Assembly: GCA_013816895.1 (NCBI GenBank)
Contig: JACDDR010000029.1
Location: forward strand, 1 to 40,052
DNA: 40,052 bases
Source of the DNA: Bacteroidota bacterium
GTDB lineage: Bacteria; Bacteroidota; Bacteroidia; B-17B0; Aurantibacillaceae
Reading direction: 5' to 3'
Shown here: positions 12,284-30,116 of the stretch, piece by piece
How the letters are laid out: each line of letters starts with the position of its first letter
Numbering within the stretch: position 1 is the stretch's first letter
Made by a program: the position numbers and the translations under genes
Notes under the pieces: model-generated
What the model was told of the DNA's origin: nothing
Seen by the model: only the letters and a program-made list of their open reading frames with translations
The model's database searches: none

Positions 12284-14341
12284 TTAAATTCTGATTCCCA
12301 CTACCAGTACATCATCGATCTGCTCAAGACCTCCGCGCCATTCGTTAAAAGCAGACTCCAGCAATTCACTTTGCGTTCTCATTGGCTGGCCGCTTATTTC
12401 CAATAGTTTTTCTTCCAGCTTCCGGTGTTTGAATTTTTTACCTTTTGGTCCGCCGAACTGATCAGCATACCCATCCGTAAATAAATAAAGGCAATCTCCT
12501 TTTTTAACTTCAATTGAAAAAGAAGAGAATGCATCTTTCTTTTCGCCCACACCAACGGGCATTTTATCTTTATCGAGACAAATCACTTCGTTTCCACGAA
12601 TCAATACAGGTTCGTTGTTCGCTGCGGCATATCTTAATCTTGTTATCTCCCTTCCCGAATTACTATCGCATTCGAAACAACACAAGATGGCATCCATTCC
12701 ATCTCTTCCTCCATCCTGCGAAACATTTTCGATCAAACGTTTTCTCACATGATCAAAAATTTGACCCGGTTCAGTTAATTTTTTTTCTGTGATGGCTTCA
12801 TTAAGGAAAGAAATGTTTAACAGGCTCATAAAGGCCCCCGGCACGCCATGGCCGGTACTATCGCACACTGCGAGGTAAAACAATTGAGAGTCGGCAGAAG
12901 TAGCCCAATAAAAATCTCCGCTTACAATATCTTTCGGTTTAAAGAACACAAAATGCTCTTCAAGATTTGCCTGTAAGAAATTTTCGTGCGCTAAAAGGGT
13001 GTTTTGAATTCGTTTTGCGTAATGAATGGAATCAAGTACTTCTTTATTTTTTTCTTCCAGTTCTATCGTGCGTTCTTTTACTTTGTATTCCAGGTGGACA
13101 TTCTGTTCCCGCACAAGCCGTTCATTTTCTGTAGCCTGCTTTAACGCATCTTCCTGCGCTTTTTCTTTTTCAAGGAGACTCACCTTAAGCTTATCTCCCA
13201 ACGCGAATGAAAGCATGATGCTTTCTATGGCTGATCCCGTTGCCAGGGCATGCCATGTAAAATCATTAATTGTAAAAATGGCTTGGGCCGATAAAATAAG
13301 ATAAAAAAGAGAAAGCATATATGCACCGAAACCTATTAAATAAAATATTGCACTGCTGTGTTTTTTCTTTAACGCAATGATTGCAGCGCTTATACATAGG
13401 ATCCCGAGCAACAATCCAAGTGGCTGGATAATAGTTTCTGATAAATAAACCAGAGGCGTTGTACTTAAAATAATATTCCCGATGGCAATAAAAATAAAAA
13501 CATGCACTACTTTCCGGAAACGCTTTGACAGCGCTTCACCAAAGAGCTTAAGCGTAAACAGCAAACCAAATATTCCAAAACAGGCTGGTGGTATGATGGG
13601 GGCAAACTCAATAATACTAAAGAACCATTTTGCGATATGTAAAGCGTATCCGCCGAGGATGGCCGTGAAGATCATACTGAAAAAAATGTACAACACATAA
13701 TACAGGTATACTATTTTTTTTTGCGTCACATATAAGTAAAAGTTATAAATAAGCATCATGATCATAATGCCATAGCAGATGCCATTAAAAAGATCAGAGT
13801 CATGCATCGGCCCAACAAATGATTCGAGGGTACCCGCCTTTATATCAAACTGAAGAGGATAATAATCCTGAACCCTGAAATAAAGCTGTACCGTATCTCC
13901 CTTGTTTAGGTCCAGCTTAAAAAAATAATGATTTACTGGAAGTGGGCGCTGCTTAAGAAGATTTCCGAGATGCTCTTCTTTCCATTCACCTTTTCCTTTT
14001 TTCTGGTAAACAACAATTTCATTAAAAGAAGCCGGATCAATTGATAAATACCAATCGGCTTGCTGGTAACAGGTAAATTTTATTTTGCCCCAGATAGCGT
14101 TGCTCGAAATATTAAAATTAGGGATGTCGGTATATGGATATGAAAAGTCATTACATTTTTCAACGTCCCTAACAGATTGATTTCCGCTTTTATCTTCATA
14201 GAAAGAAAAAGAAGCTCCGATTCTTACCGGTTGCTCTTTTATTTCAAGCATATAAATAAAATTGGGTGGTGGGCACGAAGTGTATTGCCCCTTCAAAAAA
14301 AGACCAAAAAATACAAAAATTATGAAAGAGACATTTTTCAA
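12284..14341 (-). CDS. 7TMR-DISM receptor fused to a SpoIIE-type phosphatase
   Basis: This 685-residue membrane signalling protein has a signal peptide, an extracytoplasmic 7TMR-DISM beta-sandwich sensor (about 30-170), seven transmembrane helices (about 180-385), a coiled coil (about 390-450) and a PP2C/SpoIIE domain (about 465-685). The phosphatase metal-binding regions are visible: SGDFYWA, CDSTGHGVPGAFMSLLN, FTDGYADQFGG and the final IDDVLVVGIRI. It should sense an extracellular ligand and dephosphorylate a serine or threonine on a cytoplasmic target, typically an anti-anti-sigma factor; no such partner is nearby. The start is TTG at 14341. There is no ATG in frame before the signal peptide, and an in-frame TAG lies four codons upstream. 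An ideal -33/-7 promoter ends 14 bases before that TTG. Confidence 0.93.
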   Translation of the reverse strand: MKNVSFIIFVFFGLFLKGQYTSCPPPNFIYMLEIKEQPVRIGASFSFYEDKSGNQSVRDVEKCNDFSYPYTDIPNFNISSNAIWGKIKFTCYQQADWYLSIDPASFNEIVVYQKKGKGEWKEEHLGNLLKQRPLPVNHYFFKLDLNKGDTVQLYFRVQDYYPLQFDIKAGTLESFVGPMHDSDLFNGICYGIMIMMLIYNFYLYVTQKKIVYLYYVLYIFFSMIFTAILGGYALHIAKWFFSIIEFAPIIPPACFGIFGLLFTLKLFGEALSKRFRKVVHVFIFIAIGNIILSTTPLVYLSETIIQPLGLLLGILCISAAIIALKKKHSSAIFYLIGFGAYMLSLFYLILSAQAIFTINDFTWHALATGSAIESIMLSFALGDKLKVSLLEKEKAQEDALKQATENERLVREQNVHLEYKVKERTIELEEKNKEVLDSIHYAKRIQNTLLAHENFLQANLEEHFVFFKPKDIVSGDFYWATSADSQLFYLAVCDSTGHGVPGAFMSLLNISFLNEAITEKKLTEPGQIFDHVRKRLIENVSQDGGRDGMDAILCCFECDSNSGREITRLRYAAANNEPVLIRGNEVICLDKDKMPVGVGEKKDAFSSFSIEVKKGDCLYLFTDGYADQFGGPKGKKFKHRKLEEKLLEISGQPMRTQSELLESAFNEWRGGLEQIDDVLVVGIRI

Positions 14342-15086: not shown

Positions 15087-15139
15087 ATTTATACTCCCCC
15101 ACATAAGTGAAAAACAGAAAACACAAAACCAACTGGCAA

Positions 15140-16156
15140 ATGAAAACACTTTTTTTTGCATTGTTCTTTTTTGTTCTTTTTAATGCTAATTCCCTTACCC
15201 GCACTGCAGTTGCAAACGGCGCGTGGGGAACCAACACCACCTGGTCTGGGAGCACCGTTCCCGCCTGCGGAGATTCTATTGTTATTCCTGCTTCTATTAC
15301 TGTTACCATAACTGCGGACGCCGATTATACTGCATGTAACCCCACCACTCAATATTTAAAAATAACCATTTTTGGATGCCTTAAATTTGTAAATGGTAAC
15401 AGATTAAAATTGCCCTGTAATTCGAGAATCTATGTGATGCCTGGCCCTCCAACCGGTTCAATTGTACCAGGTGTTGGTGGAGGAAGTTCTACCTTCATTG
15501 AACTCTGTAATAGTAACGTATGGACAGCCGCGATGGGAACTTTTACCGGAGGCTGCCTTCCTCCGGGACTACCCGGGTGCTCTGCCGTATTACCAATTAC
15601 GCTACTTGATTTTTCAGCCACTTTAAAAGAAAATAAAATGGACTTACTCTGGTCAACTGCTACCGAAAAAAACAATTCGCATTTTGAAGTTGAACGTGCG
15701 CCTGATGCAATTGCTTTCGTACCAATTCAGACCATCCCTTCTAAAGCACCTAATGGCAATAGTTCCATTAAACTTGATTATACTGCAACAGATGAAGACC
15801 CAATCAATAACGTAAGTTACTACAGGCTTAAGCAGGTTGACTATGACTTAACGCCCTCCTACAGTAAAATAGTTTCAGTGAATGTGGCAAAGGCTAAAAA
15901 TATCAAGTTCCTGGTATACCCTAATCCGAACAACGGAGAATTTACTGTAGATATTTCAGGCCTCGAAAACAATCACCAGATCTTGGTAGATCTCAAGAAT
16001 CTGCGGGGAGTTACCGTTTATGAATCTTCCTTTTATCTTCAGGAGGTTTCCAATAAAATTCAAATAATTCCTTCCTCTAAATTACCAAAAGGGATATATA
16101 CCTGTACGTTTACAATTGAGGAAATTCAATACAGTGTTAAAGTGGTGGTTTCTTAA
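15140..16156 (+). CDS. Small T9SS cargo protein with type A sorting domain
   Basis: I start this 338-residue protein at the ATG of MKTLFFALFFFVLFN (15140), because this gives a clean signal peptide; a GTG at 15107 is an alternative. Residues about 20-110 form a G8-like or beta-helix-start region (AWGTNTTWSGSTVPACGDSI, then repeated I-V-I-P and V-T-I-T strands) often found in Bacteroidota surface proteins. Residues about 160-250 resemble a fibronectin-like module (LLDFSATLKENKMDLLWSTA, YYRLKQVDYD). The C-terminus (LVYPNPNNGEFTVDIS to YSVKVVVS) is a type A T9SS sorting domain, so it should be displayed on the surface or released. No catalytic motif is visible; binding or adhesion is the likeliest role. 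Confidence 0.85.
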   Translation: MKTLFFALFFFVLFNANSLTRTAVANGAWGTNTTWSGSTVPACGDSIVIPASITVTITADADYTACNPTTQYLKITIFGCLKFVNGNRLKLPCNSRIYVMPGPPTGSIVPGVGGGSSTFIELCNSNVWTAAMGTFTGGCLPPGLPGCSAVLPITLLDFSATLKENKMDLLWSTATEKNNSHFEVERAPDAIAFVPIQTIPSKAPNGNSSIKLDYTATDEDPINNVSYYRLKQVDYDLTPSYSKIVSVNVAKAKNIKFLVYPNPNNGEFTVDISGLENNHQILVDLKNLRGVTVYESSFYLQEVSNKIQIIPSSKLPKGIYTCTFTIEEIQYSVKVVVS

Positions 16157-16251: not shown

Positions 16252-16551
16252 CTGCCGTTTATTCGCAAACATTTTCTTTTTGTTTTTTTCTTCCTGGTCG
16301 GTGCCGGGGAAATTTTTTCGCAATGCGATTCGCTTCGCTTTGAACCTTATTTTGACAGCATCGATAAGTACCTGAAACAGGATCTTAACAAGGCAATGCA
16401 CTATTCCTCAAAATCCCTTGAAGAGTCCAGAAAATGCCCTGGCTCGCCCATGTTTTATAAAAGTATGTTTACTATTTGTTCGGTATACGATCAGCGCGAC
16501 GGAAAAGGAACTACAATAAGTATAGATGTTCCTCTTAATTCTAAAACTTAG
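16252..16551 (+). pseudogene. Truncated secreted TPR-like reading frame without an ATG start
   Basis: A 99-codon frame begins at CTG 16252 (ATT 16261 is the other option) and ends at TAG 16549-16551. It has a convincing signal peptide, IRKHFLFVFFFLVGAGEIFSQ, then an acidic helical stretch, FEPYFDSIDKYLKQDLNKAM, and HYSSKSLEESRKCPGSPMFY, which looks like the first TPR of a Bacteroidota TPR signalling protein. After Y-D-Q-R-D-G-K-G the TPR-like character is lost and the frame ends 12 codons later, inside the 3' end of the convergent porP-like gene (11-base overlap). I read it as the 5' remnant of a larger gene whose rest was deleted or replaced. A genuine small secreted protein cannot be excluded. 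Confidence 0.55.
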
Positions 16552-17557
16552 GGCAGGAAATAAGGATCGGTCTTTTCTTCTTCTTCTTTTTTGGACAAAA
16601 CTGGTATGACAAACTGATTTCATGTGTTCCACCCGACCTCACGTTGCTTAATTTCGAAATTGTATAATCGTATGAATAACCGATATTAAGTTTATCAGCC
16701 GAAAGTCCCACCAAAAACACCAACGCGTCATTGTTCTGATACCAGGTATAGGGACGCCATAAAGGAATTCCGCGATACCACATTCCCACTACAAATAAAT
16801 TTCTGGAATAATATAATCCGATATCGATCTGGTTAAATTTTTGTTGTTTCTTATAGTTAAACGCTGCTGTGATGGAATTTTTCTCTGCGTTTTTCCGGCC
16901 TGATTCAGAATCATCGCCATCAAGAATAAATTTATGCCCTCCATGAAATTTGAAATCACCGGGTAATTTACTGCTTTCCTCAATTAAAGATTGGTTAGGC
17001 CGTGTAAAGTGATTAATTGAAAACCCGGCCCATGAGTTTTCAGAATAAGCCAATAATCCGGTGCTGGCATCAAGATACGTTGTCTTTACATTGTTAATGC
17101 TTTCTACGGAACTAGCGGCCCCGCCGCGGGCTATCTGATCGCCGAACACGAGTGCACTGTAATCAATACTTCTCTGTACCCCACCCAAAGAAAATCCTGC
17201 TCTCATTGCAAACTTTCTGTTAATCTGCAGCTGGTATGCATAAAGCGCGCTGAACTGGGTGGTTTTTAAATTTCCTGATCCTGCCTTGTCTGTAAAAAAT
17301 TGAAATCCCACACCGCTGTTTATTGATTTTGCGTAATGATCAACGGCCACCTGGTAAGTTGTGAATGTTCCAGGAATGGCAGACCATTGATTTCTGTAGT
17401 TAATGGTCATCCTGGTGCATGCCGCAGCACCGGTAAAAGCCGGGTTAAGATACGTTTGCGCTGCATAAAACTGCGAGAACTGATAATGTTGTGCTTTACC
17501 AGTTACCGCTAAAACTACGAGCGTTATAAATAAATATATTCTTTTTGAAATGCTCAT
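16541..17557 (-). CDS. PorP/SprF-family outer-membrane protein of type IX secretion
   Basis: This 338-residue protein has a signal peptide (to about residue 22) and the family opening HYQFSQFYAAQTYLNPAFTG, followed by NYRNQWSAIPGTF (about 54-66). The rest alternates short amphipathic beta strands, as expected of an outer-membrane barrel, and ends in a basic stretch KKKKKKRPILISCPKF. PorP is a core T9SS factor, and SprF is needed for surface display of the gliding adhesin SprB. Paralogues like this one usually sit next to a type B sorting-domain cargo gene and serve that cargo. Here the partner is the 1291-residue adhesin two genes upstream. The start overlaps the stop of the PD40 gene by four bases (ATGA), so the two are translationally coupled. 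Confidence 0.93.
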   Translation of the reverse strand: MSISKRIYLFITLVVLAVTGKAQHYQFSQFYAAQTYLNPAFTGAAACTRMTINYRNQWSAIPGTFTTYQVAVDHYAKSINSGVGFQFFTDKAGSGNLKTTQFSALYAYQLQINRKFAMRAGFSLGGVQRSIDYSALVFGDQIARGGAASSVESINNVKTTYLDASTGLLAYSENSWAGFSINHFTRPNQSLIEESSKLPGDFKFHGGHKFILDGDDSESGRKNAEKNSITAAFNYKKQQKFNQIDIGLYYSRNLFVVGMWYRGIPLWRPYTWYQNNDALVFLVGLSADKLNIGYSYDYTISKLSNVRSGGTHEISLSYQFCPKKKKKKRPILISCPKF

Positions 17558-19095
17558 TTAATCCGTTTTGAAACCTCAAGGCTTATTTCTGTATCGCCTG
17601 TTGCAAAAGTCATTCTTTTGATAACGGGTTCAATCATATTTCCTTCAAGAATCATTTTGTATGGTTTATCTTTTGTCATTACCAATATCATCGACATGTA
17701 ATTTTTATTTGGCCTGTATATCCCTTCCAGTTGCCCGGTTTCTGCATCATAGCAAGACATTACAAGATCTTTTAATTCCGACTTTTCTATCACGGTGTTC
17801 AGTTTGCAATAAACTATTACCTGACTCGATTCCTCAAAATCTATCTGATAAAGATCTGCATCGCCAAAGCCCCCCTCTCTCCTGGAAGTAAACAATGCCT
17901 TCTGCGAATCTTCAATTTTCATAAAATAAATATCATCATTCGGCGAATTGATAGGAACGCCCAGGGTTTTCGCTTCAAGCCATTTTAAATTTTCAGCATC
18001 AAATGCCGATTTGAAAATATCATACTCTCCTATTGAGTTATGGCCTTTTGAACTAAAATAAAGTGTATTATCTTTGTCAACGAATGGAGCATCTTCATCC
18101 TCATTAGTATTAATATCCGGTCCAAGGTTAAAAGGCAAACTATATTTACCGTTCATGAATTTCCGTATTCTGTAAAGGTCCTTTCCTCCGAATCCGCCCG
18201 GCCTGTTACTTGAAAAAACTATTTCGGTTCCATCCGAAGAAAAACATGCGCTCGCTTCAAGATATTCTGAATTTATTTCAGGGCCCATCTTTTGTGGCAA
18301 CGACCATTTGGTTCCATCAAACTGGCATAAATAAAAATCGCCACCTGTTTGTTTTTCGTCTGTGCGATAAATGATGAGCTCATTACCGGAAGGAGACATG
18401 GCAACGCAGGCGTCATGGGTTTGTGTATTAATATCGTCGCCGATAGGGCCCGGCTTGCTCCATCCCGTACTTGTTTTCTGCGCAACATAAATATCTTCGT
18501 AATACCTTCCGTAAGGATCTTTTAACCCCCCTTTACTATCCGCACGGCGCGAAGTGAAAATAAGACTTCCATTCACATTCCAAACAAGAGGTACGTATTC
18601 CGGATATTTGCTGTTTATTCCTGAGCCAAGATTTCTAACAATGAAACTTTCCTTATTGGCTTCTTCCTTTATATTTGATTCGCATGCCCTGATTACTTTA
18701 TCCACTTCAGAATTTTCGATGCTTTCTTCCTTATTCACACTTTTAAAATGATATAATTCATCCAGCGCTTTCCTGGTCTGGCCCTGCAACTGGTAGGTTT
18801 TACCAAGATAATAATGAGCTTCCGGAATTTTTGTTTTGGACTTTTCAAAGTAATACGTACTCGAAGTATCCATTTTATTCATATTAAACAAAGAAGCACC
18901 CGCTTTAAACCATAATTCGGCATCTGAGGTGTCCTTTTTAATTAAGTCAGAAAAATAATTGAATGCGTTCAGGTAATCGGCTTTTTCATACGCAAGGTTG
19001 GCCGCTTTTAACTCCTTCTTATATTGGCTGTTCTTTTGTGAAAAACCAAGGGTGCTAAAAAAAACACATAACAATATGATGTAAATAGTCTTCAA
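17554..19095 (-). CDS. TPR plus PD40 beta-propeller envelope protein
   Basis: The 513-residue product has a signal peptide (MKTIYIILLCVFFSTLGFSQ), TPR-like helices at about 22-130, then about five WD40-like PD40 blades at about 165-430. Blade signatures include EIVFSSNRPGGFGGKDLYRI, NTLYFSSKGHNSIGEYDIF and ALFTSRREGGFGDADLYQID. The last 75 residues form a small beta domain. This order, TPR then PD40, matches PorE-type T9SS proteins, which normally continue into a carboxypeptidase-like domain and a C-terminal OmpA peptidoglycan-binding domain. Both are missing, and the frame ends cleanly before the overlapping PorP-like gene. It is probably periplasmic and may link the barrel to other components, but it cannot hold peptidoglycan through an OmpA domain. 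It lies three bases after the adhesin stop codon. Confidence 0.9.
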   Translation of the reverse strand: MKTIYIILLCVFFSTLGFSQKNSQYKKELKAANLAYEKADYLNAFNYFSDLIKKDTSDAELWFKAGASLFNMNKMDTSSTYYFEKSKTKIPEAHYYLGKTYQLQGQTRKALDELYHFKSVNKEESIENSEVDKVIRACESNIKEEANKESFIVRNLGSGINSKYPEYVPLVWNVNGSLIFTSRRADSKGGLKDPYGRYYEDIYVAQKTSTGWSKPGPIGDDINTQTHDACVAMSPSGNELIIYRTDEKQTGGDFYLCQFDGTKWSLPQKMGPEINSEYLEASACFSSDGTEIVFSSNRPGGFGGKDLYRIRKFMNGKYSLPFNLGPDINTNEDEDAPFVDKDNTLYFSSKGHNSIGEYDIFKSAFDAENLKWLEAKTLGVPINSPNDDIYFMKIEDSQKALFTSRREGGFGDADLYQIDFEESSQVIVYCKLNTVIEKSELKDLVMSCYDAETGQLEGIYRPNKNYMSMILVMTKDKPYKMILEGNMIEPVIKRMTFATGDTEISLEVSKRIK

Positions 19096-19098
19096 AGA

Positions 19099-22000
19099 TT
19101 ATCTTAATAAAGTTACGTTACCGGTTTTATTATATTTTCTTCCGTCAAAAAATTTAACGTCGGCTTTCCAGACATATGCGTCCTGTTGGCAAAGCTTGCC
19201 ATTAAAATAGCCATCCCATCCCATGGCGATATCTATAGATTCAAAAATCAATTCTCCCCAACGGTTAAAAATTCTCAAATGGTATTCTGTAACACCTGAT
19301 GTATAAGGGAAAAAAACATCGTTGCTTAAATCGGCAATATTATAGGAGCCTCCGTTAGATCCGTTCAAATTTGGCGTAAACACATTCGGAAACTGGATGT
19401 CGCTTATTACTTTTATAATTTTATCCGAAGTATCTCTGCATCCGAAACTATTAACTGCAACCAGGCTCACAGTATAAAATCCTACGGTAACATAATTGTG
19501 GATGGGGTTTGCAAGGTTTGTAAAGCCTCCATCTCCGAAATTCCAATAGTAGGAAGTGGCCCCGGAACTCAGATTTGTAAACTGGATAGGATCATTAGGG
19601 ATGTTTGCTATGAATGCAGAAGGTGAGAAATCCGATATTGGAGCTGGATTGATAGTAACATTGATACCTGAACTTGAATTACCGCAAGCCCCGTTATTTA
19701 TAGACGTGATGGTTAAGTTTACAAAACCTGCAGCAATGTCGGCAGCGCTCATGCTGTAATTAACCGCGTTGGCTGCTCCTGCAAAACCAAAAGTTCCCGA
19801 ACCACTGGTTGACCATTGAAAATTACCGCTTCCTCCTGTAACTACTGCAACAACTTTTAAAGGATTCTGATATGCGCAAATGGTTGTGTCGCTTTTTAAA
19901 TTAATAACTGGTTTGCGGATAATAATAACTTTAACGGTATCTGTTGCCGCAGGACATACATCATTATTTGTAGACGTTAACACAAGTAACGCGTAGCCGT
20001 TATTGATATCTGTTGGCGAGGCATTGTATGAACCATTTAATGTGGTATTATTTGGCGAGAAGTTTCCGCTTCCGAGAGTACTCCATCCACCCGTACTGCC
20101 GCCCCCGCTCACGGTTCCGCTTAAAGCAATATTGGGCAGGGAAGAACACATGCTTAGATCAGGGCCGGCATTAACCAACGCAGGTGTTTTAATTTTTATT
20201 TTAACAGTATCGCTTACGTTCGGGCACGGTGCATTACCTGTTGCCGTTAAGGTAAAGGTAACCGATCCATTGCTCGCATCGCTGGATGTCATGGAATAGG
20301 TAGCGTTCAAAGCCGTGTTATTCGGAATAAAACTCCCGCCTCCACTGGTGGCCCACATTCCTCCATTGGTATTACTGTTTACTACACCCGACAATAATAT
20401 TGTGGGGGTATTGGAACATACATATTGATTGGGACCTGAATTAACCGCCGCTATTGGAATAAGAGTAATCTTCATAGTATCTGTAACTGCAGGGCATGGA
20501 CCGTTAGAAACAGAAGTCAACGTAAAAATAACAGTGCCGGATGCAAGATCTGAAACGCTGATATAATAATCAGTATTAAGCGAAGTTGGGGGAGGATTGA
20601 AAGCGCCCGAGCCGTTGGTTGTCCATACGCCCGATGACGTTACACCGGTTACTGTCCCACTCAGGCTTACAGATGGAGTGGTTGAGCAAATAATTTTATT
20701 TGTACCTGCATTCACAGAGGCCAATGTGGCAATCGCAATTTTTACCGAATCACTTACAGCCGGACATACACCATTAGCCGTGGAAGTAAGTGTGAATGTA
20801 ACAAAGCCGGCAGTAATATCAGAAGAGGTAAATCCAACGGAAGGATTAAGGACAAAACTTCCGGGCGTAAAGGTTCCGGCACTGCTCGAACTCCACGTTC
20901 CCGATCCCGCACTAACGCCAATAACCGATCCGTTAAGCGAAACACTTGATGCGCTCGAACAAAGGTATTGGTTAGGACCTGCGTTAACAGTAGAAATTGG
21001 GACAATAAACAAACTCGCGGTACTTGTTACAGCAGGGCATGGATTGTTACTACCCGAGGTCAGCGTAAAAATAACTGTACCGGCGGCTTTATCCCCCGCG
21101 CTAATATTGTAGATCGGGTTAAGAACCAGACTGGAAGGGTTGTAGCTTCCGCTTCCGTTGCCCGCCCAGCTTCCTGTAGTGGTTCCGCCCGTTACACTTC
21201 CATTTAATACTATACTGTTAGCGTTTGAACAAACGGTTTGCGATGTGCCAGCATTAACTATTGCTATTTTTTTAATGAATATTTTCACCGTGTCTTTAGC
21301 CACCAGACAATTTCCATTTCCTGTGGAAGAGAGTACAAGTGTTACAGTTCCGCTAATCACATCATTAGGCCCCGGCGTGTACGATCCATTGAGCTGCGAA
21401 GGGTTAGGGCTAAAACTGCCGTCCCCGTTGGTGGTCCATAGACCTGTGCTGGTTGGTCCGGTTACCGTTCCGGTCAGAGCCGCTGAGGCGTTACTGCAAA
21501 TAGTTTGATCTGCCCCAGCCATAACAGTAGGCGAAGGTGTTATAAATATTTTGGCGGTGTCTCTGGCTGCAGGACATACGCCATTTGAAGTAGACGTTAA
21601 AATAATACTCACCGTGCCGGAAATTCCTGCGGGACTCGCCGTAAAAGTTGTATTCAAACTGGTAGTGGAACTAAATACACCGCCGGTGCTGGTCCATGTA
21701 CCTGTAGAAGAAAAGCCGGATACGGTTCCTGTAATTGCAACCGAACTGTTGTTTGCGCAAACCGTAAAGTCAGGACCTGCATTTGCTATCGGTACATTCT
21801 GAAAACTGATATTGATGGTGTCTTTTTTTGAAGGACACCCCGAGTTTCCAGTGGTTGTTAAATAAAGCTGGACTCCGGATGTTATTTCACCGGGTGTGGG
21901 TAAATAATTTGTGTTTACAGAATTGGAAGTTGGTGTAAAGGTGCCGCTGCCGCCAGACCACACGCCCCCACCCGCATTAGTGACCGTACCAATTAAAATA

Positions 22001-22974
22001 ACAGTAGGGCTGCTTTTGCAGACCACCTGATCTGCCCCGGCGTTAACACTTATCGGAAGGGTATATTGATTGACTACAGCTGTTGCTGTGGTGGGCGGAC
22101 AACCCGTGTTATCCCCGACAAAAACAGTATAAGTACCAGGCCCAACGGTGACGACGGTACCGGTGCTTCCACCGGGTGACCAGGAATATGTATACGGCGG
22201 CAAACCACCCGACGCTGTTGCAGTTAACACTGCGTTGGTACTTCCAAAACAAATAGTGCTCAGTGTTGGATTAATGCCCGCAAGTAAATCTGTAAAAAAA
22301 TACACTCTGATTGTATCTTTATAGAAGTTAGCCTGACAAGGCGATTGGCCATAACCACTTACTTCATAATCTACAAAAGGAGGAGGGGTTCCGGTAGGCG
22401 CCACAACAACAGTTGCACAACCCGAAACGCAATTAAGGTAAGAGTTGTAAGCACCAGGTGAGCCGGGGCTTACAGAGTTCCAGTTAATGGTTGGAACTGA
22501 AAATCCTGAAACAGAAAGGGTTTGAGTACAGCCGTTTCTTACCAAAATCGAATCAGGAACAACCGGTGAAGGAATAGCGCTAATGGAATATGTATTTTGA
22601 TTATTACCCGGTTTACAAAATGTAAGGATGTGCGGGCCTATGCCGCTTAAACAAATTGGGGTACCGATTGAAATTGGCGGGCCGCAATTAATACTATAAT
22701 ACAACGCACCTCCCGGAGCCGCTCCCGAAGCGATTCCGAAATTTATACCCATGGAGTTTGGGTTCAACAATATGCTGAACTTTATACAAACATCGCTACC
22801 AGACCAGCCACAACAGGTATCGTTACGGACTACTGCTGTACTCACCCAAGTGGCATTGGATGCGCTGGTTAAGTTTACATTAAAGGTAGGAGTATTGGCC
22901 CCGCATTGGGAGTAATTTTTTTGAATACAAAAAAACAATAAAAGAAGGAGGGATATATTGTTTCTTTTGATCAT
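19099..22974 (-). CDS. Giant repeat adhesin with PKD domain and T9SS type B sorting domain
   Basis: This 1291-residue surface protein has a signal peptide (to about residue 22, NYSQ), an N-terminal Cys-rich beta region (23-230), an SprB-like repeat at about 232-306 (ATASGGLPPYTYSWSPGGST), nine tandem modules of about 89 residues (309-1108), a PKD domain at about 1112-1190 (YYWNFGDGG, IHNYVTVGFYTVSLVAVNSF) and a gliding-associated C-terminal domain at about 1192-1291 (FPNVFTPN, LRIFNRWGELIFES). That last domain is the type B T9SS sorting signal. It should be anchored or released at the cell surface and act in attachment or gliding, like SprB and its relatives. It heads the operon with the PD40 and PorP/SprF-like genes. 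Composition is rich in Thr, Ser, Gly, Asn and Val with few charged residues, typical of such stalks. Confidence 0.95.
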   Translation of the reverse strand: MIKRNNISLLLLLFFCIQKNYSQCGANTPTFNVNLTSASNATWVSTAVVRNDTCCGWSGSDVCIKFSILLNPNSMGINFGIASGAAPGGALYYSINCGPPISIGTPICLSGIGPHILTFCKPGNNQNTYSISAIPSPVVPDSILVRNGCTQTLSVSGFSVPTINWNSVSPGSPGAYNSYLNCVSGCATVVVAPTGTPPPFVDYEVSGYGQSPCQANFYKDTIRVYFFTDLLAGINPTLSTICFGSTNAVLTATASGGLPPYTYSWSPGGSTGTVVTVGPGTYTVFVGDNTGCPPTTATAVVNQYTLPISVNAGADQVVCKSSPTVILIGTVTNAGGGVWSGGSGTFTPTSNSVNTNYLPTPGEITSGVQLYLTTTGNSGCPSKKDTINISFQNVPIANAGPDFTVCANNSSVAITGTVSGFSSTGTWTSTGGVFSSTTSLNTTFTASPAGISGTVSIILTSTSNGVCPAARDTAKIFITPSPTVMAGADQTICSNASAALTGTVTGPTSTGLWTTNGDGSFSPNPSQLNGSYTPGPNDVISGTVTLVLSSTGNGNCLVAKDTVKIFIKKIAIVNAGTSQTVCSNANSIVLNGSVTGGTTTGSWAGNGSGSYNPSSLVLNPIYNISAGDKAAGTVIFTLTSGSNNPCPAVTSTASLFIVPISTVNAGPNQYLCSSASSVSLNGSVIGVSAGSGTWSSSSAGTFTPGSFVLNPSVGFTSSDITAGFVTFTLTSTANGVCPAVSDSVKIAIATLASVNAGTNKIICSTTPSVSLSGTVTGVTSSGVWTTNGSGAFNPPPTSLNTDYYISVSDLASGTVIFTLTSVSNGPCPAVTDTMKITLIPIAAVNSGPNQYVCSNTPTILLSGVVNSNTNGGMWATSGGGSFIPNNTALNATYSMTSSDASNGSVTFTLTATGNAPCPNVSDTVKIKIKTPALVNAGPDLSMCSSLPNIALSGTVSGGGSTGGWSTLGSGNFSPNNTTLNGSYNASPTDINNGYALLVLTSTNNDVCPAATDTVKVIIIRKPVINLKSDTTICAYQNPLKVVAVVTGGSGNFQWSTSGSGTFGFAGAANAVNYSMSAADIAAGFVNLTITSINNGACGNSSSGINVTINPAPISDFSPSAFIANIPNDPIQFTNLSSGATSYYWNFGDGGFTNLANPIHNYVTVGFYTVSLVAVNSFGCRDTSDKIIKVISDIQFPNVFTPNLNGSNGGSYNIADLSNDVFFPYTSGVTEYHLRIFNRWGELIFESIDIAMGWDGYFNGKLCQQDAYVWKADVKFFDGRKYNKTGNVTLLR
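19650..22050 (-). repeat. Nine tandem ~89-residue modules in the adhesin
   Basis: Each module opens with a V-N-A-G-x-x-Q-x-V-C-S pattern and closes with a T-L-T-S-x-x-N-G-x-C-P-A-x-x-D-T-x-K-I pattern. Eight modules are close matches. The ninth (INLKSDTTICAYQN) is divergent and lacks the N-A-G start. The modules have diverged at DNA level, so they are old duplications. Each carries conserved Cys pairs, likely disulfides outside the cell. Confidence 0.85.
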
Positions 22975-25110: not shown

Positions 25111-26235
25111 ATGAAAACATCAACTCTAAAAAAACTTCTTTCCGTTTGTTTAATGACCTCCTCTTTTTTTGTCAACTCACAAAATAAAAACAAACAAAGT
25201 CTTACGGTTTTAAACATTGATTCAAAAAATGTTACAGCCGACGCCAACACCATGGGAAACATGATCCGGATTGAACTTGAGAAACTGGATAGTTTTGCTG
25301 TGATGGATCGCTATGATGTAGCTTACATGATAGAAAAAAATAAAATAAACGTAACCAATTGTTATGGGCAAACCTGCCTTACCGAAATCGGCGCTATCAT
25401 TGGATCAGACAAAATGTTTGGAGGAACAGTTGAACAGATGGGAAAATCAATAATGGTTACTTACCGTTTAATAAATGTGAAAGAAAAAAGAATTGAGAAA
25501 ACTTACGTACACGAATTTCTTTATTTACCCGAAGAGATACAGAACATTGTGAAGCTGTCGGTTGCCGATATGTTTGGAAGAAGCGTGGATAAAGCACTCA
25601 TGGACAAATTAAGCAAGCCCTTCGAATTTGATAACAGCAATAACAACCCCAATGAAGACCGGTTAAGACTTGACGGGCCGCGGATGGGTTTTGTGAGTTA
25701 TACCGGAGAACTATATGACCGTATCTCTGAAAGCAAGTCCACCGGAGGTTTTGGCGCATTCCCGGTGATGTTCCAGTTTGGTTATCAGTTTGAAAAACAA
25801 TACCTGAACGAAGGAAAAGTGCAGGCCTTGTTTGAATTTATTCCGATGATCACAGGACTTGACCAGGGTTATTTTATTCCAAGTGCAACCCTTTTACATG
25901 GCATAAGAAGCAACATAAACGGCTGGGAATTTGCATTTGGCCCTACCTTTAATCTTATGCCAATGGCCAATGGATATTATGATGAAAATCACGCATGGCG
26001 GTTAACCAGCAGCTGGGGTAACAATCCGGATAATTCAGGCAAAACAATTCCTTTTCAAACCGAAGACAGGCTTGACAGCAGAGGAACCTATTTACTTCAT
26101 AGCGCCTTTGTTCTGGCTGCAGGAAGAACATTTAAATCAGGCAAACTCAATATACCGGTGAACGCTTTTGTGATTCCGGGGAAAGACGGATGGAGGTTTG
26201 GGATTTCGTTTGGGTTTAACGCCAAAAATAAATAA
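25111..26235 (+). CDS. CsgG/TolB-N-like secreted envelope protein
   Basis: The 374-residue product has a signal peptide ending near F-V-N-S-Q. Residues about 30-170 resemble the CsgG/LpoB/TolB N-terminal fold: LTVLNIDSKNVTADANTMGN, then IELEKLDSFAVMDRYDVAYM, then a Cys pair in NCYGQTCLTEIGAIIGSDKM and GTVEQMGKSIMVTYRLINVK. In this fold a small domain reads or assembles envelope complexes; the exact Bacteroidota role is unknown. Residues about 190-374 alternate aromatic and hydrophobic strands (GFGAFPVMFQFGYQFEK, WRFGISFGFNAKNK) like a small outer-membrane barrel or lipocalin-like sheet. A strong terminator follows, so it is monocistronic with its own promoter. The domain calls rest on pattern only. 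Confidence 0.7.
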   Translation: MKTSTLKKLLSVCLMTSSFFVNSQNKNKQSLTVLNIDSKNVTADANTMGNMIRIELEKLDSFAVMDRYDVAYMIEKNKINVTNCYGQTCLTEIGAIIGSDKMFGGTVEQMGKSIMVTYRLINVKEKRIEKTYVHEFLYLPEEIQNIVKLSVADMFGRSVDKALMDKLSKPFEFDNSNNNPNEDRLRLDGPRMGFVSYTGELYDRISESKSTGGFGAFPVMFQFGYQFEKQYLNEGKVQALFEFIPMITGLDQGYFIPSATLLHGIRSNINGWEFAFGPTFNLMPMANGYYDENHAWRLTSSWGNNPDNSGKTIPFQTEDRLDSRGTYLLHSAFVLAAGRTFKSGKLNIPVNAFVIPGKDGWRFGISFGFNAKNK

Positions 26236-26618: not shown

Positions 26619-29600
26619 ATGGTGTGTGTGAAGCGTTTAGCGGTACTTATCCTTCTTTCTTTTATTACCTTAAAAGGAACCGCGCAGCTATTTACCCCAA
26701 CCAAAAAAAAATTATTTAAAATTCTCAGCGATACGCTGGTACTTGATTCATTAAGCCTTGTGCCGGGCAGTGTGAACTTTAAGAGCTTTCCTGCACTGGA
26801 TTCGCTGGAGCAACCCGTTCTTAATTACAAGCAGCACGCGCTTATTTTTCGTGGAAAAAAACCGGACAGCATCCTCGTTGCTTACAAAAGATTTCCCTTT
26901 GATTTTGAGCACCGCTATTTTCACAGGAATCCGAATACGCTGTTTACCGATCTCTCTCGTCCCAATAACCCTTACACGATTACCTATACAAATTCCACCC
27001 GTCAGGATTTTTTGTTGCAGGATGATGGATTAACTAAAAACGGAAACGTGAGTCGTGGAATCACATTCGGCAATAACCAGGATGTAGTGGTAAACTCAAA
27101 TTTAAATTTACAGGTAAGCGGTAAACTTACGCCGGAGATCGACATGGTGCTGGCTGCGACCGACAACAACATCCCTTTTCAGGCCGATGGCACAACCGCG
27201 CAGTTGCAGGAATTTGACAAGGTTTTTATCCAGTTGAACAACACCAGCACACGGTTGGTAGTTGGAGATTACCAGCTCTCGCGACCACAGAACAGTTACT
27301 TCATGAACTTTTATAAACGCGCGCAGGGCGTGTATCTTGAAAATGTTTATACCGACAGCACCCTGAAAAAACCGCTTACTTTTAAAACACAAGTGTCGGG
27401 CGCAGTATCCAGAGGAAAGTTTGCCCGGCAGGTTTTCTTTGGCATTGAAAACAACCAGGGCCCTTATCGCTTACGCGGAGCGGATAATGAACCCTTTATT
27501 ATTGTTTTAAGCGGAACCGAACGGATTTTTATTGATGGAAAACTATTACAACGCGGCCAGGAAAATGATTACATTATTGATTACAACAGTGGTGAATTAA
27601 CGTTTACCGCAAGGCAAATTATAACAAAGGATAAACGGATCGTTGCTGAGTTTCAATACGCGGAAAGAAATTACGCACGCTCGCTATTTTTTTTCGGTGA
27701 AGAAATGTCGGGAAAAAGAGCCAAAGGATTTATTAATTTTTACAGCGAGCAAGATAACAAGAATCGCCCCCTGCAGCAAACGCTTAGCCAACCGCAAAAA
27801 AATATTTTAATCGGAATTGGCGATACCCTTCAAAAGGCTTATTATTCGGGAGTAGAAGCGGCTGCTTACAATAACAGCGATGTGTTTTACCGCCGCACCG
27901 ATTCATTGGTGAATGGTATTCTCTATAAAAGCGTTTACATTTACAGTACGCTTGAAGACAGTGCTAAGTACCGTTTGAAGTTCAGTAACGTGGGTGCAGG
28001 CAATGGTAATTACAACCAGGTAAACACAGCGGCTAACGGCAGGGTCTATCAATGGAAAGCTCCTGTAAATGGCGTCCTACAGGGAAGTTTTGAACCGGTG
28101 ATCCCTCTGGTAACGCCTAAACAAACACAAATGCTCACAGCCGGATTTTCCTATTCGGTAAGTCCCAACAACACCTTAACTGTTGAAGGAGTATATACTA
28201 AAAACGATGTGAACCGCTTCAGCACTTCCGATAAAGGCAATGATGAAGGAAGTGGCGTTAAAGTAATAAGTAGAAATCAGGAGATCCTTCGTACTGATAC
28301 TTTGAAGCGTGAAACCAAATTAATTTATAATGTGAATTATGAATTCATTCAAAAACAGTTTACACGAATCGAACGATTCAGAAGCATTGAATTTGAACGC
28401 GACTGGAACAGACCATTATCTACCTTGCTGGTAAACGACCAGCACCTGGCCAACGCCGAGATTGGCCTTCTTAAAACGGGTAGCTCCGCATTAACTTACG
28501 GATTTAATGTGTTCAGTGAAGGAAACAATTACACGGGATTAAAACATAATGTAGTAGCAAGTCACCAGCAAAATAAATTCACTTCGCTGTATTCCGGCTC
28601 CTATCTGCTTACCAATGATAACGCAAATATCCAGCTTACCGAATTTTACAGACACAAAACGCTTTTTACGAAGAAAATCGAAAAAATAAAATTATCCTAT
28701 TCAGATGAATTTGAAAATAACCTGTTCAAACACGCATTTACAAAAAATCTATTACCCCGCTCCTATCAGTTCTGGGAATGGGAAGCAAGCATATCGAATG
28801 CCGATAGTACCAGGAATAAAATAAAACTCTTTTACAAAGAACGAAGAGATAAACTCGCTTACGGAAAGGATTTGAAAGATAGCACCTATGCCCAGAACAT
28901 TGGCGTGCAGGCTTCCATCTATTCTATAAAAAACAATCCTATTACAGTATTGGTAACGTACCGCAAGCTTGAATTAAAAAATGTGGTCGGAACTTTCCTA
29001 AAACCCGATAACACTTTATTGAATCGCCTTGAATATAATCCCCGTTATTTTAAAGGATTCATCACCATGGGAATTTTTTATGAAACCGGTTACGGCCTTG
29101 AAAACCGCAAAGAATTCTATTACCTGGAAGTAGCGCCGGGACAAGGTCAGTACGGGTGGAACGATTATAACGGCAATTCCATTAAGGAGGTAAACGAGTT
29201 TGAAGTGGCGCAATTCAGCGACCAGGCAAGGTTTATCCGCATTTATACACCTACCAATAATTACATAAAAGTGCTGCAAAACCAAATGAGTGTTTCTCTT
29301 AATTTAAGACCATCCGCTATTTTAAAAAATCCCAAACATGCAGGAGGTAAGTTCGCGAACCGTTGGATCATTCAAACCGCAATGCGCGTTGACAATAAGA
29401 CATCCGACAATAAAAGTCTCGATAATTTTAATCCCTTTCTGGATGTAAATGACACGCTGTTAATTGCCAGCAACAATAATTTACGCCAGAGTGTGTTTTT
29501 CAACCAGGCCTCGCCCGTGTTTGGCGCAGACTACACCTATATTAATAATCAGTCGAAACAGCTACTCACCAATGGCATCGAAAAAAGAACGTTATTATCG

Positions 29601-30116
29601 CACGAAATAAAATGGCGGTATAATTTTTTGAAAGCCTGGTCGGTAAACAGTAATACCATTTTTTCGCAAAAAGGAAATCGCTCGCAGTTATTCTCCACCC
29701 GGAATTACCTTATTGAATCGTATGAAACGGAACAACGGTTAATTTACCAGCCCAACACATACTTCAGAATTAGCGGCATATACAAATACACCCAAAAACA
29801 AAATATTATTGAAGGAGGTTTGCAAAAAGCCTTATTACGTACTTACGCAGTGGAACTGAAATTTAATCAAACCGAAAAAGGAAGTTTAACCGGACGCGCA
29901 GATTTTATACAGATCCATTATAACGATGATCAAAGCAGTCCGGTTTCTTATGAAATGCTCAATGCTCTGAATAAAGGCGACAACTACACCTGGGAATTAA
30001 GCTACCAGCGAAACTTAAGTAATAACATACAGATAAGCATTAATTATAACGGAAGAAAAACGCCTCACGTGAACGCTGTACATTTAGGTGGCGCGCAGGT
30101 AAGGGCGTATTTTTAA
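26619..30116 (+). CDS. Large predicted outer-membrane protein of an unnamed Bacteroidota family
   Basis: This 1165-residue protein has a signal peptide (KRLAVLILLSFITLKGTAQ) and is otherwise dominated by beta strands with alternating polarity and many Tyr, Phe and Asn, as in a large outer-membrane barrel. A recognisable block is SRGITFGNNQDVVVNSNLNL (about 146-165), then VFIQLNNTSTRLVVGDYQLS and RIFIDGKLLQRGQENDYIID (about 304-323). From memory, the pattern F-I-D-G-x-L-L-x-R-G-x-x-x-D-Y-I-I-D-Y-N-x-G-E-L-T-F-T recurs in large surface proteins of Bacteroidota and related phyla. I cannot name the family or its function. There is no T9SS tail. It does not reach the size of SprA and has no visible SprA organisation. 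The start could be ATG 26619 or the in-frame GTG at 26631. Confidence 0.75.
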   Translation: MVCVKRLAVLILLSFITLKGTAQLFTPTKKKLFKILSDTLVLDSLSLVPGSVNFKSFPALDSLEQPVLNYKQHALIFRGKKPDSILVAYKRFPFDFEHRYFHRNPNTLFTDLSRPNNPYTITYTNSTRQDFLLQDDGLTKNGNVSRGITFGNNQDVVVNSNLNLQVSGKLTPEIDMVLAATDNNIPFQADGTTAQLQEFDKVFIQLNNTSTRLVVGDYQLSRPQNSYFMNFYKRAQGVYLENVYTDSTLKKPLTFKTQVSGAVSRGKFARQVFFGIENNQGPYRLRGADNEPFIIVLSGTERIFIDGKLLQRGQENDYIIDYNSGELTFTARQIITKDKRIVAEFQYAERNYARSLFFFGEEMSGKRAKGFINFYSEQDNKNRPLQQTLSQPQKNILIGIGDTLQKAYYSGVEAAAYNNSDVFYRRTDSLVNGILYKSVYIYSTLEDSAKYRLKFSNVGAGNGNYNQVNTAANGRVYQWKAPVNGVLQGSFEPVIPLVTPKQTQMLTAGFSYSVSPNNTLTVEGVYTKNDVNRFSTSDKGNDEGSGVKVISRNQEILRTDTLKRETKLIYNVNYEFIQKQFTRIERFRSIEFERDWNRPLSTLLVNDQHLANAEIGLLKTGSSALTYGFNVFSEGNNYTGLKHNVVASHQQNKFTSLYSGSYLLTNDNANIQLTEFYRHKTLFTKKIEKIKLSYSDEFENNLFKHAFTKNLLPRSYQFWEWEASISNADSTRNKIKLFYKERRDKLAYGKDLKDSTYAQNIGVQASIYSIKNNPITVLVTYRKLELKNVVGTFLKPDNTLLNRLEYNPRYFKGFITMGIFYETGYGLENRKEFYYLEVAPGQGQYGWNDYNGNSIKEVNEFEVAQFSDQARFIRIYTPTNNYIKVLQNQMSVSLNLRPSAILKNPKHAGGKFANRWIIQTAMRVDNKTSDNKSLDNFNPFLDVNDTLLIASNNNLRQSVFFNQASPVFGADYTYINNQSKQLLTNGIEKRTLLSHEIKWRYNFLKAWSVNSNTIFSQKGNRSQLFSTRNYLIESYETEQRLIYQPNTYFRISGIYKYTQKQNIIEGGLQKALLRTYAVELKFNQTEKGSLTGRADFIQIHYNDDQSSPVSYEMLNALNKGDNYTWELSYQRNLSNNIQISINYNGRKTPHVNAVHLGGAQVRAYF

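Follow-up and report, generated by a model that had tools for sequence, protein, structure and literature searches.

The adhesin, linker and PorP genes described here form an operon that is real, coherent and widely conserved. Its middle product is a periplasmic protein related to PorE but without an OmpA domain, and sequence comparison identifies this linker as a class-wide clade of its own, accompanied by its own types of PorP and of sorting domain. None of these properties was noticed in the sequence-only reading of the window (the whole stretch of 40,052 nucleotides), which our analysis followed up. We regard it as reasonably probable that the type IX secretion system (T9SS) uses this operon for cargo-specific surface display, in the four steps set out below.

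According to the open reading frames of the window, the three genes lie head-to-tail on the minus strand (Table 1). The TAA stop codon of the adhesin gene is separated from the linker gene by the three bases TCT. The linker starts with TTG, two codons past the adhesin stop and in the same frame, so that an earlier start is impossible. The linker and PorP genes overlap by four bases (ATGA). A re-reading of the window gave the frames, the gap and the overlap exactly as the sequence-only reading had claimed them, and the domains it had named (SprB-like repeat, nine modules, PKD and type B domain in the adhesin, TPR/PD40 in the linker, PorP/SprF in the third protein) were all recovered. The upstream neighbour, an FTCD gene at a distance of 221 bases, and the downstream neighbour, a type A T9SS cargo gene on the opposite strand, are outside the unit. 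The type A cargo (15107-16156), which is convergent with the triad, has a weak G8 domain match, and a 352-aa protein resembling it adjoins another PorP operon (L019:806-1864). Genes of SpoIIE-type phosphatases with differing sensor parts are located near the linker or the triad in several genomes (window 12284-14341; L055:2150-4207; L061:4986-6566; L069:15195-16442); as such genes are common, this proximity may be due to chance. Two further reading frames of the window, 26619-30116 (1165 aa) and 25111-26235 (374 aa), had no Pfam or NCBIfam match at E 0.1.

Table 1. Features of the adhesin-linker-PorP unit, in positions of the window.
Feature	Positions	Strand	Basis
Putative adhesin and type B T9SS cargo, N-terminal signal peptide, 1291 aa	19099..22974	-	ORF, domain searches
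SprB repeat PF13573, adhesin residues ~241-269	22168..22254	-	39.9 bits, cut-off 28
Nine tandem ~90-aa Ig/PKD-like modules, adhesin residues ~310-1111	19642..22047	-	Repeat comparison
PKD domain PF18911, adhesin residues ~1126-1184	19423..19599	-	1.7e-9
Type B C-terminal sorting domain (CHU_C/TIGR04131)	19102..19398	-	CHU_C 1.6e-8
Periplasmic linker, PorE-related without OmpA domain, TTG start, 513 aa	17554..19095	-	ORF, domain searches, model, tree
Linker TPR region, residues 24-146	18658..19026	-	AlphaFold2 helices, TPR sequence matches
Linker beta-propeller (PD40), residues 150-423	17827..18648	-	Sequence match, model
Linker C-terminal all-beta domain at PorE CRD position, residues 424-510	17566..17826	-	Model; chain ends there
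PorP/SprF-like outer-membrane barrel, predicted dedicated shuttle/anchor, 338 aa	16541..17557	-	Family matches, model
PorP periplasmic C-tail CPKKKKKKRPILISCPKF, Cys321 and Cys335	16544..16597	-	Sequence, triad alignment

In a profile search, the linker gave a PD40 match of 7.7e-16 and a weak TPR match. The best full-length models were CHU_0125_OmpA and PorE; as these were covered only at positions 3-430 of about 640, the OmpA part is absent. The score against the PorE model (NF052230) was 165.6 bits, which is below the curated cut-off of 600. An AlphaFold2 model computed with 38 sequences reached a mean pLDDT of 90.5 and displays, in combination with the profiles, the PorE plan of TPR, PD40 propeller and CRD-like domain. 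The model is all-beta at the CRD position, but this domain of the window linker had no CRD match in Pfam. Neither the sequence search nor the secondary structure of the model contained an OmpA domain. Foldseek signaled only a general propeller similarity of the model, for example to TolB. At the N-terminus MKTIYIILLCVFFSTLGFSQ, inspection by eye revealed no lipobox cysteine where a lipoprotein signal would be cleaved.

The SprB repeat of the adhesin was missed by the scan of the whole protein and was detected with the isolated segment (3.1e-10). Among the clear modules, pairwise identity is about 40-55%; modules 1-8 each possess a conserved cysteine pair, and the ninth is, as read by eye, more diverged. 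By sequence, this part of the adhesin resembles a protein of solved structure, the grappling-hook protein GhpA of Aureispira (9flp, E=4.4e-12). At the extreme C-terminus, CHU_C scored 35 bits (cut-off 27), and TIGR04131 scored 34.8 bits (cut-off 35) or, in the genome search, 39.4. The sorting domains of the triads have the specific signature KLCQQDxYVWK, whose cysteine is Cys1262 in the window adhesin. This KLC cysteine occurs in 49 of 58 triads and in 1 of 57 other cases, and identity to the sorting domain of the window is 48-89% in triads versus 17-49% elsewhere. From these identity values it follows that each C-terminal sorting domain (CTD) is matched to its linker and PorP as a set. We considered and dismissed a covalent link from the sorting-domain cysteine to PorP: outside the tail, there is no PorP cysteine as common as that of the sorting domain.

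Relatives of the linker, sought in 150 related genomes, turned out to be numerous. Orthologs with 58-67% identity exist in G018, G020, G021, G025, G065 and G075; further relatives of about 35-42% identity, mostly 505-550 aa long, are found throughout the family and, beyond it, in further families of the same class. The neighbourhoods of 20 loci and of 80 named loci, mostly from MAGs, were read. The sequence-only reading had named a gene order conserved in no related genome as one refutation of its proposal. Dozens of genomes, from several families of the class, share the order type B adhesin, OmpA-less linker, PorP, which is far beyond chance; G018 and G025 have two triads each, one per sequence group. 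The set comprises 58 distinct CTD-linker-PorP triads with median gaps of 3 and -1 bases. The OmpA-less linker is encoded between adhesin and PorP in 62 of 67 loci and after PorP in 5, whereas an OmpA-bearing PorE-like gene follows PorP in 22 of 24 loci and lies between in 2 (Fisher 3e-14; related sequences were treated as independent, and the p-value is only a guide). Four of the five exceptional OmpA-less genes code for longer proteins of one type, and in the two of these that were checked a diverged OmpA domain is present; the fifth is truncated where its contig stops. The triad linkers constitute one clade (SH-aLRT 99), and the operon-borne PorE-like proteins constitute a separate one (100). 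Median length of the triad linkers is 521 aa, with a common end point after the beta-sandwich in dozens of genomes. Only one linker of the triad clade, encoded at L101:8971-11043, has an OmpA domain, which is either ancestral or regained. Solitary OmpA-less linkers, adjoined by neither adhesin nor PorP, were observed at L055:8514-10076 (contig C134 of the same genome as the window), L072 and L061.

The barrel protein matched PF11751 (7.1e-65; 219.7 bits against 22.3) and TIGR03519 (2.7e-74; 250 bits against 90.55). Its model is a 14-strand barrel with a mean pLDDT of 79.9, and the top PDB match of the model was chain F of the T9SS translocon structures 8gl6 and 6h3i, which we take to be the PorV shuttle; a PDB search with the PorP sequence gave no match. 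For comparison, the PorP genes of five genomes (14-20 per genome) were read with their neighbourhoods and joined with those of the triads, which resulted in 148 distinct PorP loci. Triad PorPs end with a basic stretch followed by (S/P/T)C(P/A)KF. The tail cysteine is present in 59 of 62 triad PorPs as compared to 29 of 86 others; it is missing from L071 and L084, which have VTVPKF instead, and also from L130. Because the 29 other PorPs carry one as well, a tail cysteine alone is not a sign of mobility; its use as a simple mark of mobile cargo is also weakened by its occurrence in some PorPs paired with OmpA-bearing PorE-like proteins. Cys47 exists in 12 of the 62 triads (the window and eleven others) and is in all 12 accompanied by the proximal tail residue Cys321. 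In the model, Cys47 is located just before the first and Cys321 just after the last barrel strand. Due to this co-occurrence and placement, the two residues probably form an internal disulfide that closes the barrel and leaves Cys335 free.

The closest relatives of the triad PorPs are PorPs encoded beside gldJ (tree support 98 in one tree, 86 in another), whose tails are similarly basic with SCPxF, for example ECRPKKKKFRTISCPSF. In contrast to the window, the operon of the gldJ-adjacent PorP from the same genome (L010:6074-8747, contig C113) contains neither adhesin nor linker. PorP genes directly upstream of gldJ were also observed at L157, L172, L180, L204, L217, L220 and L223; these PorPs form one clade and have no adhesin of their own. 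As the genome of the window encodes 49 type B domains versus about 20 PorPs, a gldJ-adjacent PorP could serve as a shared shuttle for many orphan type B cargos. GldJ of this genome scored 450 bits (cut-off 458); GldK, GldL and GldM are present, and its GldK contains an Arg-Gly-Cys-Phe (RGCF) motif with Cys388. The cysteine of this motif binds SprF in F. johnsoniae (PMC12635249). Closeness to the gldJ-linked PorPs, being a likeness of sequences, does not establish a link to the track. Co-presence of GldJ and linker over the 150 genomes is suggestive only, the GldJ-negative genomes being few, distant or fragmented; four fragmented family members have a linker match and no GldJ match.

Given the order of adhesin and PorP and the SprB repeat, the operon might be taken for the SprB gliding operon of the lineage, with the linker as SprD and PorP as SprF. 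As reference we used locus L229 of the Flavobacterium-like genome G199, whose sprC-sprD-sprB-sprF genes were named by gene order and CPC tail only: The operon encodes a 498-aa CHU_C protein, a 1164-aa PorP-domain protein, a 3545-aa adhesin and a PorP with CPC tail, which fits this order. In the putative SprD (L229:2181-5675), a PorP-domain barrel is joined to a charged coiled coil of great length, suggesting that the barrel carries a periplasmic stalk of its own; this SprD has no sequence relation to the linker at E 10. The SprF of L229 groups with other C-x-C PorPs, apart from the triad PorPs, although its branch is long and its placement unsure. A Cys-Xaa-Cys of the SprF type is absent from the window PorP tail, where Cys321 and Cys335 lie 14 residues apart. 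Since SprD is unrelated to the linker and SprF is distant from the triad PorPs, orthology is not supported, and we consider a sprB operon very unlikely. In three Flavobacterium-like genomes, the relatives of the linker are PorE-size reading frames of 639-724 aa, except for two partial matches. A last simple explanation would be that truncation or an assembly error has removed the OmpA domain from an ordinary PorE operon, in agreement with PorE models being matched only over their N-terminal two thirds; it is scarcely credible for linkers that share an end point, a clade and a gene order, and the conserved architecture refutes it.

In the mechanism which we propose, the adhesin would reach the periplasm via Sec and cross the outer membrane via the core SprA translocon, as expected from homology. 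By analogy with SprF and PorP shuttles, the dedicated PorP-like barrel would then take over the type B CTD from the translocon and hold the adhesin at the surface. The TPR/propeller linker would cap PorP on the periplasmic side; its architecture comes from sequence and model, whereas binding is assumed from the PorP-PorE pair. These three steps together are likely, and a display role is well supported by homology. Without an OmpA domain, the linker should not be able to grip peptidoglycan as PorE does, so that the complex would not be wall-anchored by it; this lack of a cell-wall grip follows from the predicted architecture. In the fourth step, the complex would attach via the PorP tail with its conserved cysteine, possibly by a disulfide, most plausibly to the GldK/GldJ track, resulting in a moving adhesin. 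This step, which draws on the tail cysteine, the closeness to gldJ-linked PorPs and the GldK motif, is put forward tentatively; the published pairing of PorE-like genes with static cargo speaks against it. A more far-reaching version would make the triads a distinct, widely conserved class of moving adhesins, in which a bond from the tail cysteine couples PorP to the GldK track and the OmpA-less linker serves as track adaptor; the PorE-type partner, by losing or gaining OmpA, would then switch a type B adhesin between mobile and static. This version seems quite unlikely.

The fate of the adhesin would be different if the linker acted like PorE and borrowed peptidoglycan binding from a separate OmpA-family protein, fixing the adhesin to the wall. 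The shared plan of TPR, propeller and beta-sandwich, the static cargo of PorE-like operons in F. johnsoniae (PMC12618676), the many other OmpA-domain proteins encoded in the genome and the OmpA domain kept by L101 are in agreement with such static anchoring. However, the neighbourhoods read showed no conserved OmpA gene within the triads or next to them, and the absence of OmpA throughout one deep clade suggests that the linker has settled into a function that needs no direct binding to the wall; we judge static anchoring somewhat unlikely. Alternatively, the linker might act in assembly only, accompanying adhesin or PorP to the translocon as a chaperone or docking factor of the periplasm and having no place in the finished surface complex. 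Gene order and near-zero gaps suggest matched expression, TPR and TolB-like propeller folds are common scaffolds, and the linkers of L055, L061 and L072 have no adhesin or PorP beside them, all of which would suit an assembly factor. In Porphyromonas gingivalis, however, the homologous PorE binds PorP (PMC9143113), which argues for a component of the complex instead, and a purely assisting role is in our view unlikely.

The general kind of the module that we favour, namely type B cargo, shuttle and PorE-like protein, is already published. Operons with type B CTD, SprF-like shuttle and PorE-like protein have been described, and static wall anchoring via PorE was proposed (PMC9143113, PMC12618676); F. 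johnsoniae has five with type B cargo, own shuttle and PorE-like protein, for which static adhesin anchoring was proposed as well (PMC12618676). The sequence-only reading had presented the system as poorly described, a claim that has to be withdrawn. Its cargo-specific display module with a periplasmic linker of its own fits the sequence and comparative evidence, but not its separateness from the core T9SS, as type B cargo still leaves via the SprA translocon (PMC12635249, PMC12618676). What sets the window module apart are the OmpA-less class-wide linker, for which the literature searched contained no description (one may nevertheless exist), the gene order, and the matched PorP and CTD. Fjoh_3952-3951-3950 of F. 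johnsoniae likewise combines type B cargo, PorP/SprF-like shuttle and TPR/propeller periplasmic protein in one operon (PMC12618676); in that operon, the gene of the PorE homolog follows that of the shuttle, whereas the window linker lies between adhesin and PorP, has no OmpA domain and belongs to another clade. PG1035-PorP-PorE of P. gingivalis has the same three roles, PorP binding the type B CTD and PorE binding PorP, but PorE is an outer-membrane lipoprotein with an OmpA-type peptidoglycan-binding domain (PMC9143113); in the window linker, OmpA is absent and no lipobox is evident. The SprB-SprF gliding system shares the type B adhesin, the SprF-like carrier and a periplasmic-tail cysteine; it differs by its C-x-C tail, another PorP clade, SprC and SprD, and the lack of a PorE-related linker (PMC12635249).

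For F. johnsoniae, recent work has drawn a line between type B adhesins that move and those that are static, and has linked PorE-like partners to the static kind; the published contrast places PorE-like genes with static cargo (PMC12618676). The triads are a large natural group that breaks this pairing, in that their PorE-related partner lacks the wall-binding domain and is accompanied by a PorP and a sorting domain that match it. What holds a surface adhesin in place or sets it free thereby becomes a matter for a direct genetic test, and gene order, OmpA, the SCPKF tail and the KLCxQD signature are sequence marks by which such modules can be sorted in genomes.
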